This document shows, in pieces, positions 1 through 62,310 of a stretch of DNA of 64,000 bases; position 1 is the stretch's first letter, and every line of letters starts with the position of its first letter. The notes beneath the pieces are model-generated. The model saw only the letters and a program-made list of their open reading frames with translations. It was not told the DNA's origin and did not search any database. Both the position numbers and the translations under genes were made by a program. Source of the DNA: Diploptera punctata (lineage: Eukaryota > Arthropoda > Insecta > Blattodea > Blaberidae); the NCBI GenBank assembly GCA_030220185.1, contig JASPKZ010000424.1:718001-782000 (forward strand), in the 5' to 3' direction.

Positions 1-495
1 ATTTTTATGCAGACCTGGTTTCGTCGCTTTTGTGCAACATTGTTGATGCATTCCAACTGTTTTTTGCAGTTCATCCTGTAAGTTGATTTCTGCTCCCTAT
101 GCTGGCTGACTGATAAACTTCCAATCAATTTTTTTTCTTTTTTCTTTTTCTCCCAAAATTGTGAGTTCCTTAGATTTTTTGTAACAGTTTAGTAATTTGG
201 CCTAAGTTTCAATTCTGTGTTTTTCTGACCAAGCATGTGCACCTATTGCAGATTTTTCTATAAATCTAAGGAACTCACAATTTGGGAAAAAAAATTACAT
301 CTACAAGAATAAGAAGAAAACCATGAATTTTTTAATTCCTGGAAAAAAAGAAAAAATTTGATTTGGAAGTTCATCGATCAGCCAACAGAAGGAGCAGGAA
401 TCAACTTACAGAATGGACAAACGCAAAACAAGTTGGAATGAATCGACAATGTCGTGCAAAAGCGACAAAACCTGGTTTGCATAAAAATCAATAAA
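1..495. mobile_element. PLE palindrome (GIY-YIG 3' fragment), truncated by window edge
   Basis: The left arm is the element minus strand (1 to about 260) and the right arm its plus strand (about 262-495), both ending with the element 3' end. Translation of the right arm gives ELTIWEKxYIY and MNF, the end of the PLE GIY-YIG protein. Ribozyme-like modules lie at 7-51 (minus) and 438-482 (plus). The right arm ends ATGAGGTGAGT near 500. Confidence 0.75.
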
Positions 496-1414
496 TATGA
501 GGTGAGTCAAAATAACCTACTCATTAAAGAAAAAGATTTGTTACTACTCCTAATGTAAATATTAATCCTGAGTTCGAGACTAATTCAAGTGCTAATAAAC
601 TGTGTGTTTTTTTTTCTATTTTCTAATTTGAATTTATGCAGGTGGTATGGTGGCATAGAATCCGCAACATATATATTTCTTTATTTAATATTTGTAGGAA
701 ATAACATTATGAGGTTTCTTTCAATTCTAACTCATAATAATATATATTTCTCTTAGGTAATTATTCACATACTATCTAGGAACACTTAATCAATAAAAAT
801 TATATAAGATTAGAAATAAATAGAAGAATTGGAATTGCAAATAAAGCATATTATGCTCTTCTTCCCATATTAAAGAGCCATATTGTTCTTAGATGTACCA
901 AAATCAAGATATATAAAACATTTTAAAATTATAATATAAAATTATATACATCTTAGGTCCATCTCCTCAACCATTAAAACATGAAGTTACTGTAGGCCTT
1001 TCAGGGCTAGTCCCATCATCAGCAGAAGGTATGTCTATATTCACTGGCATCGAATGCAAGACTGACTGGTCTATTATAACTTTAAAAAGTGGGTTTGAAG
1101 TACTGGGTGTGTTCTCTTGTAATAACAGGTCATTGTTAGTCTGCTTAAATATTTCAAATTCCTCCAGTACATTGATTCTACTCGGATTATTTTCTTTGTG
1201 CATAATAGCCATACATTGATTCTATTCAGATTATTTTCTTTGTGCATAATAGTCATACTATTTAGTAGAATAGTATGACTATTATGCACAAAGAAAATAA
1301 TCTGAATAGAATCAACTTACTGGAGGAATTTGAAACATTTCAGCAGACCAACAATGACCTGTTATTAAACGAGAACACACCCAGTACTTCAAACCCACTC
1401 TTTAAAGTTATAAC

Positions 1415-2414
1415 TAGGGCTGGGATTTCTATGTAATTACATATTCTTTTCCTTTGCATATACATGGGTAAAACTGATAAATGTCCATGAATTACAAACT
1501 TACTTATTACATACGAAAATTGATCATTACATATTTTTACATATTTGATCATAATTGCATATTTTTGCATATTTTAAAGATTTTATGTAAATTTACATAT
1601 TCTGCCTCTCAATTAAAAAAATATTTTCATAAGCGGAAAATAATTTTAAAAATATTTGTGACAATATTTGTTTACATTAAAAAACTCAGATATGTAATTG
1701 TACACTGAAACTGTTTTTTCCAACCTATACAAAAGCTGCTGAGAAACGGTCAAAGAAGAATTCCATTTACTAAACATGATAAACATAGATACAGGAAGCC
1801 TCTGAAGGCTTGAGTATAGGGTTCCACAGAGCAAGATCTCTTTTAAAACCTGAACGATTTACTTTGTTTATGAATGAAATATTAGAAATATATAGGGGGC
1901 ACACCGTGGTATAGTTGGTTAAGACAATATCCTACAAGCTAGAAAATCGAGGGTCGAGACCCGATGGGGTCAGGATTTTTAAATTGCTTGATCTTCTAGC
2001 GCACCATGATCCTGGGTTCGACTAAGCCTATAAAAAAAAACTAATACCATACTATGTTGTGTGGGTAAAGACAGCTATCACTCAAGGCTGAAATTTCTTG
2101 CTGATTCTCTAGAAAGATGGGAGCCTTAACCTCCCAATATCCCTAAACCCTGTAGTGGGATCACTTTATAATAGAAACATGACAACACTCTTTTTACTTG
2201 TACCATGTTGTCAAGCATTTAACTGTCCCATTCCTTCAAATTTGATCTATCTTAATGTTAACGTTTAATGTAAATTTATATAAAATTAAATCTGAATGTA
2301 TTTAATATTACATATTTTAAGGAATTTTTATGTAATCTTACATATTTTACATAATGTTATTTACATAAATATGTACATTTTTGCATGTTAATATTATATA
2401 AAAATCCTAGTCTA
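1415..2414. mobile_element. non-autonomous hAT element, 1,000 bp
   Basis: Flanked by exact 8-bp target duplications GTTATAAC (1407-1414, 2415-2422). Ends are TAGGGCTGGGATTT and, inverted, TAGACTAGGATTT. Interior is AT-rich with repeated TACATATT motifs, no transposase, and a nested SINE at 1895-2170. Confidence 0.8.
1895..2170 (+). mobile_element. tRNA-derived SINE, family A
   Basis: A tRNA-like head (A-box-like TGGTATAGTTGG, B-box-like GGTCGAGACCC) is followed by a body ending TGTAGTGGGATCACTTTA. The same body occurs at 11104-11393, 31988-32211 and 63470-63757. Confidence 0.75.
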
Positions 2415-2806
2415 GTTATAACGGACCAGCCAGTCTTGCATTTGAGGCCAGTGAATGTAGACATATCTTGTGCTGATGATGGGACTAGTGCTACACTAAC
2501 TTCATGTTTTAATGGTTGAGGAGACAGACCTATAATTTTAAATTGTGAATAACACCTCAACTGAGTTTACAATGCTTTGTAATAATGTTGAATATAAAAC
2601 ACTGATTAAACCAATCGTTACTTATGGTTCTGAAGCTTGGGTACTGACTATTATATTTGTAATCAGTTAAATATTTTTTAAAGAAAGGCACTGAGAAGAA
2701 TATCGGGAGCAGTTTCTGTAGATAACATCTGGAGAAGAAGATATAATTGAAAATTAATACAATTATTAGGAGATCTTGATATTGTCTCAAACATAAGGCT
2801 TGGTCA

Positions 2807-3136
2807 ATCTAAATGCAAATCTTTCTCTTATATATGCTGGTAAATCCCGTGCACTAAATGCTATGAAACCTTTGCTTCTATCTTGCAAATGGTGGCGACT
2901 TTATTAAGAAGACACTTGATTTGGAATTTTACATTACATTATAAAGCCAGTAAGGCTTCTTTTGATGTTTTTATTATTCATTTCATACATCTCAATGATG
3001 GATAAATTATATTTGAAGAGAAAATTATACACTCAGCCTGGAATCTTGGATTCAAACCCCAGTCTGAGCATATAATTTTTCTCTTCAAATATAATTTATC
3101 CATCATTAAAATGTATAAAATGAATAATAAAAACAT
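2807..3136. mobile_element. palindromic tRNA-SINE (SINE-T) in a LINE
   Basis: Flanked by near-identical 15-bp duplications (2792-2806, 3137-3151; one mismatch). Minus-oriented body, a tRNA-like 3' half near 3038-3070, then a short plus-oriented arm ending in AATAATAAAAAC. The left end begins exactly at the junction that precedes the tRNA head in tandem copies. Confidence 0.75.
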
Positions 3137-60555: not shown

Positions 60556-60856
60556 TTCATGGTGAAATTAAATGTTTCTTACCTCTCCTCATATAAATCT
60601 TCTAAGTAGATCATGATTTCAAGACCATTAACGGTCTCATCTTCAGTACTTCTTTGGCGACTGATGTTATGTTGATCGGAAGAAACTCTTCTTCCCTCTA
60701 ACATCAGTTGCCAAAGAAGTACTGAAGATGAGACCGTTATGGTCTTGAAATCGTGATCTACTTAGAAGATTTATATGAGGAGAGGTAAGAAACATTTAAT
60801 TGCACCATAAATTAAACCTCATAGTGATTAATTCCTATAAAAGTTAAACGTTGATA
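60556..60856. mobile_element. PLE palindrome, family C
   Basis: Arms meet near 60695. Flanked by a 43-bp direct repeat (60513-60555, 60857-60899). Right side has the full terminal module. Hammerhead-like modules 60604-60650 (minus) and 60717-60763 (plus). Confidence 0.85.
60717..60763 (+). ncRNA. hammerhead ribozyme-like module
   Basis: Helix I AAGTA/TACTT, core CTGAAGA, extra T, helix II GAGACC/GGTCTT, GAAA, helix III ATC/GAT, cleavage position C. Core fits the consensus. Confidence 0.6.
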
Positions 60857-60894
60857 TTCGTTTCTTCACACCAACCACTAGTTGCTAAACACAT

Positions 60895-61565
60895 TGATAG
60901 TTTGATCTTAAATATTAAATTTATCACTTCTTTATTTAAACTTTTATAGGAATAAATCACTATGAGGTTTAATTTATGGTTAAATTAAAATGCTTCATAC
61001 CTCATCTCATATCCAATCTTCTAAGTAGATATTTCAAAGCCTTGGCAGCTTCATCTTCAGTACTTTATTGTCAACTCAACAAGAAAGTACTGAAAATGAA
61101 GCCGCCAAGGCTTTGAAATCGCAATCTACTTAGAAGACTGGATATGAAGCATTTTAATTTATTCATTATCACTTCTTACTGAAAGACAAATTTTATTTGA
61201 AGAGAAAAAAATATATATACCTGAATCAGGATTTGAAACCAATGTCTCTAGTTTTGTACAGTAGTGCTCTGACCGCTAAGGTATCAGGCTTCCAATCCAA
61301 ATGAATATATTTCTCTTATTTATATATATGAATTCCTGCGTGCCGAGGCTATGAACTTTTTGTTCTACACTCCGTCTGCAGCTTCTTTCAACAAAAAGAC
61401 TTTATTGGATATCAACACCACATTTGTAGTCAGTGAAGCTTATTTTCAATCTTAAATGTTAAATTTATCACTTCTTACTGAGAGACAAATTTTATTTGAA
61501 GAGAAAAATATATAGGGTTTCAAATCCCAATTAAGAGTTTTCTCTTCAAATAAAACATTGATAGT
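60895..61565 (-). mobile_element. SINE-T2, interrupted by a PLE
   Basis: 60900-60932 resumes at 61178; tRNA-like head about 61225-61295 (inverse GGTATCAGGCT ... GATTTGAAACC), body 61300-61480, another inverted tail near 61490-61560. Confidence 0.6.
60933..61165. mobile_element. PLE palindrome, family C
   Basis: 12-bp duplication TTATCACTTCTT (60921-60932, 61166-61177). Module at 61085-61131: AAGTA/TACTT, GAAGCC/GGCTTT. Left outer end carries the terminal module. Confidence 0.85.
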
Positions 61566-61799
61566 TATCGCTCATGTTTGCACGATAGCAAAATGTTCAG
61601 TGGTATTATCTGTGATTTAGTCTAGCGATAAACCACCAAAGTTTACTGAAATTTCCACTAGAGGCAATAAATCTATGGTGCGCAGTATAATAGGCTTAAG
61701 TCAAAAAATCAAACTTTTCAGGGCAAGCAAATTAAACTTCAAGGTGATCTCTAAAAAAAAATCATGTTTATCTAGATATTCTGTGTTTTGGAATATAAA

Positions 61800-62310
61800 A
61801 AGCATTCTTTAGCAAACAAAAATTGAAAAAGAAGCTAACTTTGAAACATTTGACAAAACCTTTGGATTTGACAGTTTGGGAAAAGATTATACTTTCAGAA
61901 GAACAAATTTAGATCCGTGAATTTTTTAATTTCTAATGAACAAGGTTTGATCTCAAAGTTCATAAATCAATATTAGATGGCAGCTTTGAAGATGAAGGTG
62001 TAGATGAAAGTTTCAACAGGCGTAAAGATGACTGAAGATAGGAAAGATATTTTCAAAAACTAGTCCTGTGCTTTGAAGAATACGGAGCCAATGAACAAGG
62101 TTTGATCTCAAAGTTCATAAATCAATATTAGATGGCAGCTTTGAAGACGAAGGTGTAGATGAAAATTTCAACAGGCGTAAAGATGGCTGAAGATAGAAAA
62201 AATATTTTCAGAAACTGGTCCTGTGCTTTGAAGAATACAGAGTTTATGAGGTGAGATACTCACAACTCATTGATTTATTTTTAACTTGAAAGCTTCATAA
62301 TGTTGTTTCC
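61800..62310 (+). mobile_element. PLE 3' region with tandem 155-bp repeat
   Basis: [13 protein letters not shown] endonuclease end (61855-61900), then two tandem copies of a 155-bp unit (about 61936-62090, 62091-62245), each ending in a hammerhead-like module (62026-62075, 62180-62230), then ATGAGGTGAGATACTCAC and GCTTCATAATGTTGTTTCCC. Confidence 0.75.

Follow-up and report, generated by a model that had tools for sequence, protein, structure and literature searches.

We describe a hammerhead ribozyme-like fold that stands at the junction of tandem units in Penelope-like elements (PLEs) of the cockroach Diploptera punctata (genome, 3.12 Gb). The analysis started from a PLE-rich stretch of 64 kb (contig JASPKZ010000424.1, positions 718,001 to 782,000), referred to here as the window. 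The fold lies in the terminal repeat, or junction, of PLEs that encode a reverse transcriptase (RT) and a GIY-YIG endonuclease. It is a type I hammerhead with three helices, open at helix I, and it is kept by compensatory change. In seven families it is followed, in constant order, by a hairpin (A), a branched element (B) and the start of the next open reading frame (ORF), and in the two families mapped, genomic copies end at two points, one in the loop of A and one in B. We consider it probable that these are minimal type I hammerheads of endonuclease-bearing PLEs, situated at the seams between units; they would cut as dimers, and their cleavage would most likely free messages or limit the template.

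An initial annotation of the window had listed 21 sites at which such a fold recurs in PLE families, and this claim was confirmed. Both strands were scanned for the canonical core with three helices, using first-order shuffles as control. Six places scored 14 or more, compared with 0.07 expected in shuffles, and 17 scored 12 or more, compared with 0.87 expected, both counts including copies of one family. A new covariance model, R1, trained on 15 rows, namely 60604-60651 on the minus strand and 14 of the listed sites, returned 17 of the 21 at an E value of 0.01 or less, a recovery that is partly circular. Weaker matches were obtained at 9578 (E 0.038), 53140 (E 0.34) and 53641 (E 0.45), and none up to E <= 5 at 17787. 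Eight sites absent from the initial list were matched by R1 as well (Table 1).

Loci were also selected by their endonuclease protein, independently of the fold. For the family at 26-28 kb of the window, an R1 match was found in all 30 loci sampled from at least 150 places (L001 being the window's own copy), 127-140 nt beyond the protein match. The 59.6-kb family gave matches in 10 of 10 loci (L043 being the window's own copy) and in 10 of 10 further copies chosen for long frames from at least 150 places. When places were chosen by the motif ATGAGGTRAG alone, R1 matched 3-40 nt upstream in 81 of 107, overlapping loci included. By eye, several of the remaining 26 were truncated or decayed copies, and two resembled another repeat. 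Five arbitrary 8-kb regions elsewhere in the genome (40 kb) yielded a single weak R1 match (E 0.026), which indicates that the window is PLE-rich and that its hammerhead density is not to be extrapolated; a genome-wide estimate based on that density was dropped.

Covariation in helices I and II, as claimed in the initial annotation, was evident in the 15 rows of R1 (0.708, compared with 0.267 +- 0.037 in shuffled and at most 0.158 in slid controls). A larger alignment of 69 distinct rows bore this out, with a value of 0.707 compared with 0.254 +- 0.014 in shuffled and at most 0.167 in slid controls. Chance folds combined with descent from one sequence could be suspected, given that the families are related by descent and that the sites were chosen by an earlier reader. 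The shuffled and slid controls, the excess over shuffles in the scan and the helix III palindromes with differing letters argue against this explanation, and we regard it as extremely improbable.

Core letters were counted after grouping 118 R1 matches into 40 subfamilies. A9, A13 and an additional U after A9 were present in 40 of 40. The extra T, which the initial annotation had described as frequent, is therefore a regular part of the core; the exception is L078, from a family outside this grouping, which has an A instead. Position 3 was C in 28 subfamilies and U in 12, position 8 was G in 26 and A in 14, and H17 was not G in 38 of 40. Among 68 scored distinct rows, the 3-8 pair was CG in 46, UA in 15, UG in 2 and something else in 5, and the change from C3-G8 to U3-A8 occurred chiefly within one clade. 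The core was scored as C3 U4 G5 A6 G8 A9 / G12 A13 A14 / A15.1-U16.1 with H17 not G and, with U3-A8 counted as equal to C3-G8, its letters were intact in 21 of 40 subfamilies. Missing core bases had been noted before and were indeed seen; some are compensatory (U3-A8), and others predict loss of cleavage. The latter include A14U and G17 in the 26-28 kb family, which lacks an intact core and would, on these letters, be unable to cleave. The absence of helix I from the families at 9.5, 17.8 and 43.9 kb, also reported initially, was confirmed by reading the sites; in the 9.5-kb family, helix I is missing from tandem copies as well (L082).

In 33 of 40 subfamilies, the segment from A15.1 to U16.1 was self-complementary when G-U pairs were counted. 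Its inner positions formed Watson-Crick pairs in 52 of 63 cases (expected fraction, 0.265) and, over 19 families, in 24 of 28. The GTC or ATC that the initial annotation had placed after helix III reflects this self-complementarity, which is of the dimer type. The innermost bases of helix III are unable to pair within one molecule, a constraint that supports dimers, and the self-complementarity suggests hammerheads that act in this way.

The fold had been assigned to the 3' end of the elements. Outward-facing ends agree with this; however, the position is a by-product, and the fold sits at the junction of tandem units. N-terminal protein searches (at least 150 places each) supplied 40 short stretches chosen for diversity, of which 20 had R1 matches on the ORF strand; the rest were truncated, rearranged or decayed. 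The junction could be read from the hammerhead to an ATGG in seven families: 26-28 kb (L068-L070), 59.6 kb (L065, L066), 9.5 kb (L082, L083), 60.7-kb type (L088, L089, L095, L096, L100), 39.8-kb type (L090, L097, L098, L106), L076, and L078 with L086, the hammerhead of L086 not being reached by R1. In L077 and L099, the ATGG was reached, but an inverted repeat lay upstream. The order in all seven families was end of the upstream ORF, hammerhead, hairpin A, element B and ATGG start, with 14-23 nt from the predicted cut site, after H17, to hairpin A and 126-172 nt from the cut site to the ATGG (ATTG in L106). In the 26-28 kb family, the upstream ORF stops at a TGA inside the CUGA core. The extra T mostly creates an ATG; a role of the extra U as part of the ORF start codon was rejected, as in the seven families the ORF begins at the downstream ATGG. 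The start reads ARATGGCG in the L069, L076, L078, L082, L089 and L097 junctions, which we take to resemble the YY1 motif of other retrotransposon 5' ends.

Hairpin A pairs TATGAGGT with ACCTCATA over a sequence resembling a 5' splice site (AG|GTRAG), the two strands starting 40-52 nt apart. In 17 long-ended rows, 95.6% of cells were paired, compared with 91.5% after shuffling, the latter value being high because most rows agree, and four doubly changed cells were observed, compared with 0.3 in shuffles. Besides ATGAG/CTCAT, the variants GTGAG/CTCAC, AAGAG/CTCTT, TTGAG/CTCAA and GAGAT/ATCTC occurred. Element B consists of a TTCC/GGAA closing stem, with C-G or T-A just inside, that encloses two arms, one AT-rich and the other GACnnCTCAAGTC-like. 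RNAalifold, applied to nine junctions, recovered hairpin A as well as B's inner hairpin. Element B is the weaker claim of the two.

The donor-like letters raise the possibility that hairpin A marks the edge of an intron in the 5' untranslated region, with ATGAG|GTRAG as a real donor, intronic start points and unspliced RNA as the sole template. A donor of at least 10 bits lay within 45 nt at 16 of 29 window hammerheads (facing copies included), compared with 1.1% of random places; AG|GTAAG is kept in L089, though shifted, and in six of seven families an AG followed by GGA or GAA was read by eye close to where B ends. Against an intron, acceptor pyrimidine tracts are poor, the ORF start needs no splicing and the donor is a prediction. 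In silico splicing of two junctions, with nine AGs tried per junction, found no convincing acceptor: none before the ATGG joined the frame, and one inside the ORF did. Since the acceptors are weak, the intron stays a rival idea, which we find doubtful though not far-fetched.

In two families, an exact seed was used to locate where genomic copies end on the 3' side. The 26-28 kb family gave 39 distinct ends, of which 17 lay at +10 to +16, in the loop of A, and 19 at +59 to +64, in B, with none between the two points. The other three were L006, which reaches the second point once a gap of one base is allowed for, and L068 and L019, which run into the next unit. The 59.6-kb family behaved similarly, with 8 of 14 distinct ends at +8 to +15 (loop of A), 5 at +46 to +48 (B) and 1 running on; in an older subgroup, 4 and 3 of 7 ends fell at the two points. 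Apparent ends at +45 and +221 proved to be one-base-gap artefacts or run-on copies and were rejected. Among 29 distinct pairs of facing copies from the same family, 26 combined one short and one long end, three had two long ends and none had two short ends (28 of 31 pairs were mixed before duplicate removal). Ten more adjacent pairs were set aside because fewer than 21 of 26 bases agreed at their ends; of these, six were mixed and four had two short ends.

Copies thus end about 55-110 nt beyond the cut site, which lies upstream of both end points, and in head-to-head insertions the ribozyme faces outward at both ends. From these ends, reverse transcription would start in hairpin A and element B. 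In the mechanism that we propose, two hammerheads of a multimeric transcript would pair through the self-complementary helix III and cut each other. If RT starts downstream of the cut, cut RNA would be unable to yield the copies seen, in which hammerhead and upstream sequence are present. Cleavage would then more likely release downstream ORF messages, or limit the template, than make the template. More speculatively, and with a probability well short of even, the junction RNA may serve as a loading pad with two sites, at which, during a single insertion, one RT unit starts in the loop of A on one cut strand and a second starts in B on the other. The hammerhead would act as a template-destroying switch that sorts multimers into template (uncut) and message (cut). 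If true, this arrangement would explain why head-to-head copies have a short end on one side and a long end on the other, and elements might lose the hammerhead.

The recently spread 26-28 kb family has lost two core bases and kept the fold, which indicates that the ribozyme is dispensable. Its retention of helices I-III despite A14U and G17 also fits an explanation in which the template RNA keeps the fold in order to bind protein and catalysis is a relic. The tandem family without helix I, which carries 824-residue frames, points the same way, as do experiments on an Anolis PLE in which hammerhead mutants insert normally and the RNA cleaves only with protein (PMC11167929, in excerpt). Against it stand the intact letters in 21 of 40 subfamilies, changes in the 3-8 pair that are mostly compensatory and the avoidance of G at H17. 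We judge this explanation rather unlikely and favor dimer-cutting hammerheads.

Several points weigh against the favored reading. The recovery of listed sites by R1 is circular in part, since two thirds of them (14 of 21) had served as training rows. Each of the families sampled by protein also supplied one R1 row, so their loci demonstrate persistence in copies and not a new fold. Covariation rows are related by descent, and the shuffles ignore relatedness. The core letters are intact in just 21 of 40 subfamilies, and two of these lack helix I. Rfam hammerhead models, a check named in the initial annotation, matched nothing in the window even at E 10 and nothing in the seven junction loci at E <= 1; the genome count for RF00163 was 0, yet controls likewise gave 0 of 14. 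Rows for hairpin A were chosen by eye among long-ended copies. The covariation of element B (closing stem, P 0.002; inner hairpin, P 0.01) derives from nine rows of seven families in which four of eight closing pairs were alignment anchors, and RNAalifold on the nine junctions did not recover its closing stem. Finally, it is from sequence patterns that we infer cleavage, action as dimers, the release of messages and the points at which RT starts.

The coordinates of the features in the window are given in Table 1.

Table 1. Hammerhead folds and associated PLE features in the window
Feature	Position	Strand	Basis
Hammerhead, intact core, helix III AUCGUGAU	60717..60763	+	scan, R1
Hammerhead, other arm of palindrome 60555-60812 (added)	60604..60651	-	scan, R1
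Palindrome with a hammerhead in each arm; short, without ORF	60555-60812		
Hairpin A 5' strand TATGAGGA, beside donor-like AG|GTAAG	60774..60781	+	
Hairpin A 3' strand ACCTCATA	60816..60823	+	
Hammerhead, A8 in this copy	61085..61131	+	R1
Hammerhead facing 61085..61131 (added)	61023..61065	-	R1
Tandem pair of 155 bp; both units contain a hammerhead and a piece of a PLE endonuclease	61935-62242		
Hammerhead, second unit of tandem pair	62182..62225	+	scan, R1
Hammerhead, A12, first unit of tandem pair	62027..62070	+	R1
Hammerhead of 59.6-kb family, intact core	59615..59665	-	R1
PLE ORF fragment upstream of 59.6-kb-family hammerhead; 152 aa served as query	59754..60211	-	
Hammerhead with U3-A8	58355..58402	-	R1
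U3-A8 hammerhead in the opposite arm of palindrome 58303-59110	59011..59058	+	R1
Hammerhead with U3-A8	16664..16710	-	R1
Hammerhead with U3-A8 (added)	17149..17195	+	R1
Hammerhead with U3-A8, decayed core	7..51	-	R1
Hammerhead with U3-A8, decayed core	438..482	+	R1
Hammerhead fold of 26-28 kb family, A14U and G17, predicted inactive	28687..28733	+	R1
Hairpin A 5' strand TATGAGGT, overlaps GAG|GTAAG	28752..28759	+	
Hairpin A 3' strand ACCTCATA (long 3' end)	28798..28805	+	
Hammerhead of 26-28 kb family, other arm of palindrome 25697-28789 (added)	25753..25799	-	R1
Hammerhead of 26-28 kb family, third copy (added)	40189..40235	-	R1
PLE reverse transcriptase (RVT_1)	26406..27320	-	domain match
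PLE GIY-YIG endonuclease	25930..26475	-	domain match
Hammerhead, G5C	49784..49830	+	scan, R1
Hammerhead facing 49784..49830, G5C (added)	49571..49617	-	R1
Hammerhead, U3-G8 in this copy	51494..51540	+	R1
Hammerhead; relatives adjoining PLE ORF start are L097, L098, L106	39804..39846	-	R1
Hammerhead facing 39804..39846, A12	40023..40065	+	R1
Hammerhead, C3-A8 (added)	54400..54443	+	scan, R1
Hammerhead-like copy, weak	53634..53677	-	scan, R1
Hammerhead-like copy, weak, U4A, helix III AGGCCU	53141..53182	+	scan, R1
Hammerhead without helix I	43884..43925	+	R1
Hammerhead remnant without helix I; hairpin A TAAGAGGT/ACCTCTTA; beyond reach of R1	17783..17825	+	
Hammerhead without helix I; hairpin A TTGAGGT/ACCTCAA	9577..9614	+	R1
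Hammerhead, family of 9577 (added)	54647..54682	-	R1
Hammerhead, family of 9577	54979..55014	+	R1
(added), absent from the initial annotation.

Many copies form head-to-head palindromes, such as 25697-28789 and 58303-59110 (both 98.8%); inverted PLE arrangements, including an optional tail at one side, have been described (PMC3846280, in excerpt). The endonuclease of the 26-28 kb family was found at 150 or more places with 86-100% protein identity, some being the two arms of one insertion, and its frames reach 897 residues. That of the 59.6-kb family was likewise found at no fewer than 150 places (88-100% identity, many equal in score), and the ORF fragment upstream of its window hammerhead shares about 51% identity with the 26-28 kb family. 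A tblastn search with one 849-residue PLE frame found more diverged fragments upstream of many listed sites. Among the 120 matches listed of 535, relatives of the PLE protein carry RT and often GIY-YIG, show 29-52% identity and include several insect-named proteins. Viral contigs searched for relatives of the 26-28 kb ORF and for the hairpin A pattern gave none. In the 9.5-kb family (L082 and L083 on contig C698), units stand head to tail, 2.69 kb apart, with 824-residue frames and a hammerhead without helix I.

Could the copies be nonautonomous retrozymes rather than parts of PLEs? Several window copies are short and without an ORF (e.g., 60555-60812), and the 155-bp tandem pair has a hammerhead in each unit. 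However, the same hammerhead types adjoin long PLE ORFs (L089, L097 and L065), the 155-bp unit overlaps a PLE endonuclease fragment, the pair is the one of nine window tandem arrays to hold hammerheads, and elsewhere hammerheads occur in ORF-bearing units, as in the tandem on C698. A retrozyme origin therefore appears very unlikely. Metazoan retrozymes (PMC7229834) also have type I hammerheads in retroelements, but they are short noncoding tandem repeats of 150-450 bp with a canonical hammerhead, whereas the hammerheads here stand beside PLE ORFs, the 155-bp pair excepted.

Further repeats were observed in the window. A hammerhead-like site at 988-1027(-), also found at L034:3912-3951(+), lies within a different repeat, and the L034 site overlaps the codons for the C terminus of an open frame of 200 residues. 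tRNA-derived SINE-like repeats, some in inverted pairs, occur at 5010-5340, 18784-19151 and 51190-51368. A 529-bp stretch is duplicated in tandem at 55112-56160 (99.4% identity, with an RVT_1 match below cut-off), and 34487-37007 is dense in nested direct and inverted repeats. Transposase-like fragments lie at 13930-14700(+), with DDE_3 below cut-off, and at 44928-45971(-), with a DUF4817 helix-turn-helix above it. Those Rfam microRNA matches that were compared coincide with inverted repeats and were rejected.

PLE hammerheads are already in print, and the ribozymes described here add members to a known group. The remark in the initial annotation that type I hammerheads are known in PLEs is borne out by the literature, as far as excerpts of it go: minimal forms with a proposed dimer action were reported by Luense, Weinberg, and Breaker (2017) and by Cervera and de la Pena (2014), as cited in PMC7761336, PMC10085705 and PMC6155905. 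Ours share with them the pseudo-LTR position, type I topology, short helix III and proposed dimer action. Compared through these citing papers, they differ in the regular extra U after A9, the U3-A8 clade, the spread family with a lost core and the tight linkage to A and B. A 2020 review states that PLE forms lack helix III or the contacts between loops I and II, and it calls the activity and role of PLE hammerheads a mystery (PMC7761336, in excerpt). Natural U3-A8 hammerheads have been described, with in vitro activity said to be proven (Perreault et al. 2011; PMC3088659, in excerpt). The same compensatory swap is here fixed in a PLE clade, and the idea of a first report was rejected. The added core base also has a counterpart: a viroid hammerhead reportedly has an extra core nucleotide (de la Pena and Flores 2001, as cited in PMC6155905). 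Both have an added base in the consensus core, but here it is a U and occurs in nearly all families.

The closest likeness is to Poseidon PAc of Anolis carolinensis (Frangieh et al. 2024; PMC11167929), for which RT is reported to start at two neighboring internal sites, the same for either strand, and both DNA strands are reported to be cut. The hammerhead of that element cleaves only with protein, and its loss leaves in vitro insertion unaffected. Common to both systems are a hammerhead that immediately precedes a pair of neighboring RT start sites (here proposed from copy ends), a stem-loop at the RT start and cutting of both DNA strands. The ORF of PAc is said to begin at stem II, whereas the ATGG lies 126-172 nt past the cut here. 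The open literature searched, key papers lying outside it, yielded no description of such a compact junction with both folds or of the end rule. As far as checked, what appears new is the junction order together with A, B and the end rule, a one-sided optional tail being already known (PMC3846280).

This anatomy predicts that cleavage lies off the path to the template, since copy ends lie beyond the cut. It names two conserved folds, A and B, as possible landing sites of the reverse transcriptase. A recently spread core-lost family and a core-intact family provide natural controls within one genome, and the compact seam makes the role of PLE hammerheads testable.

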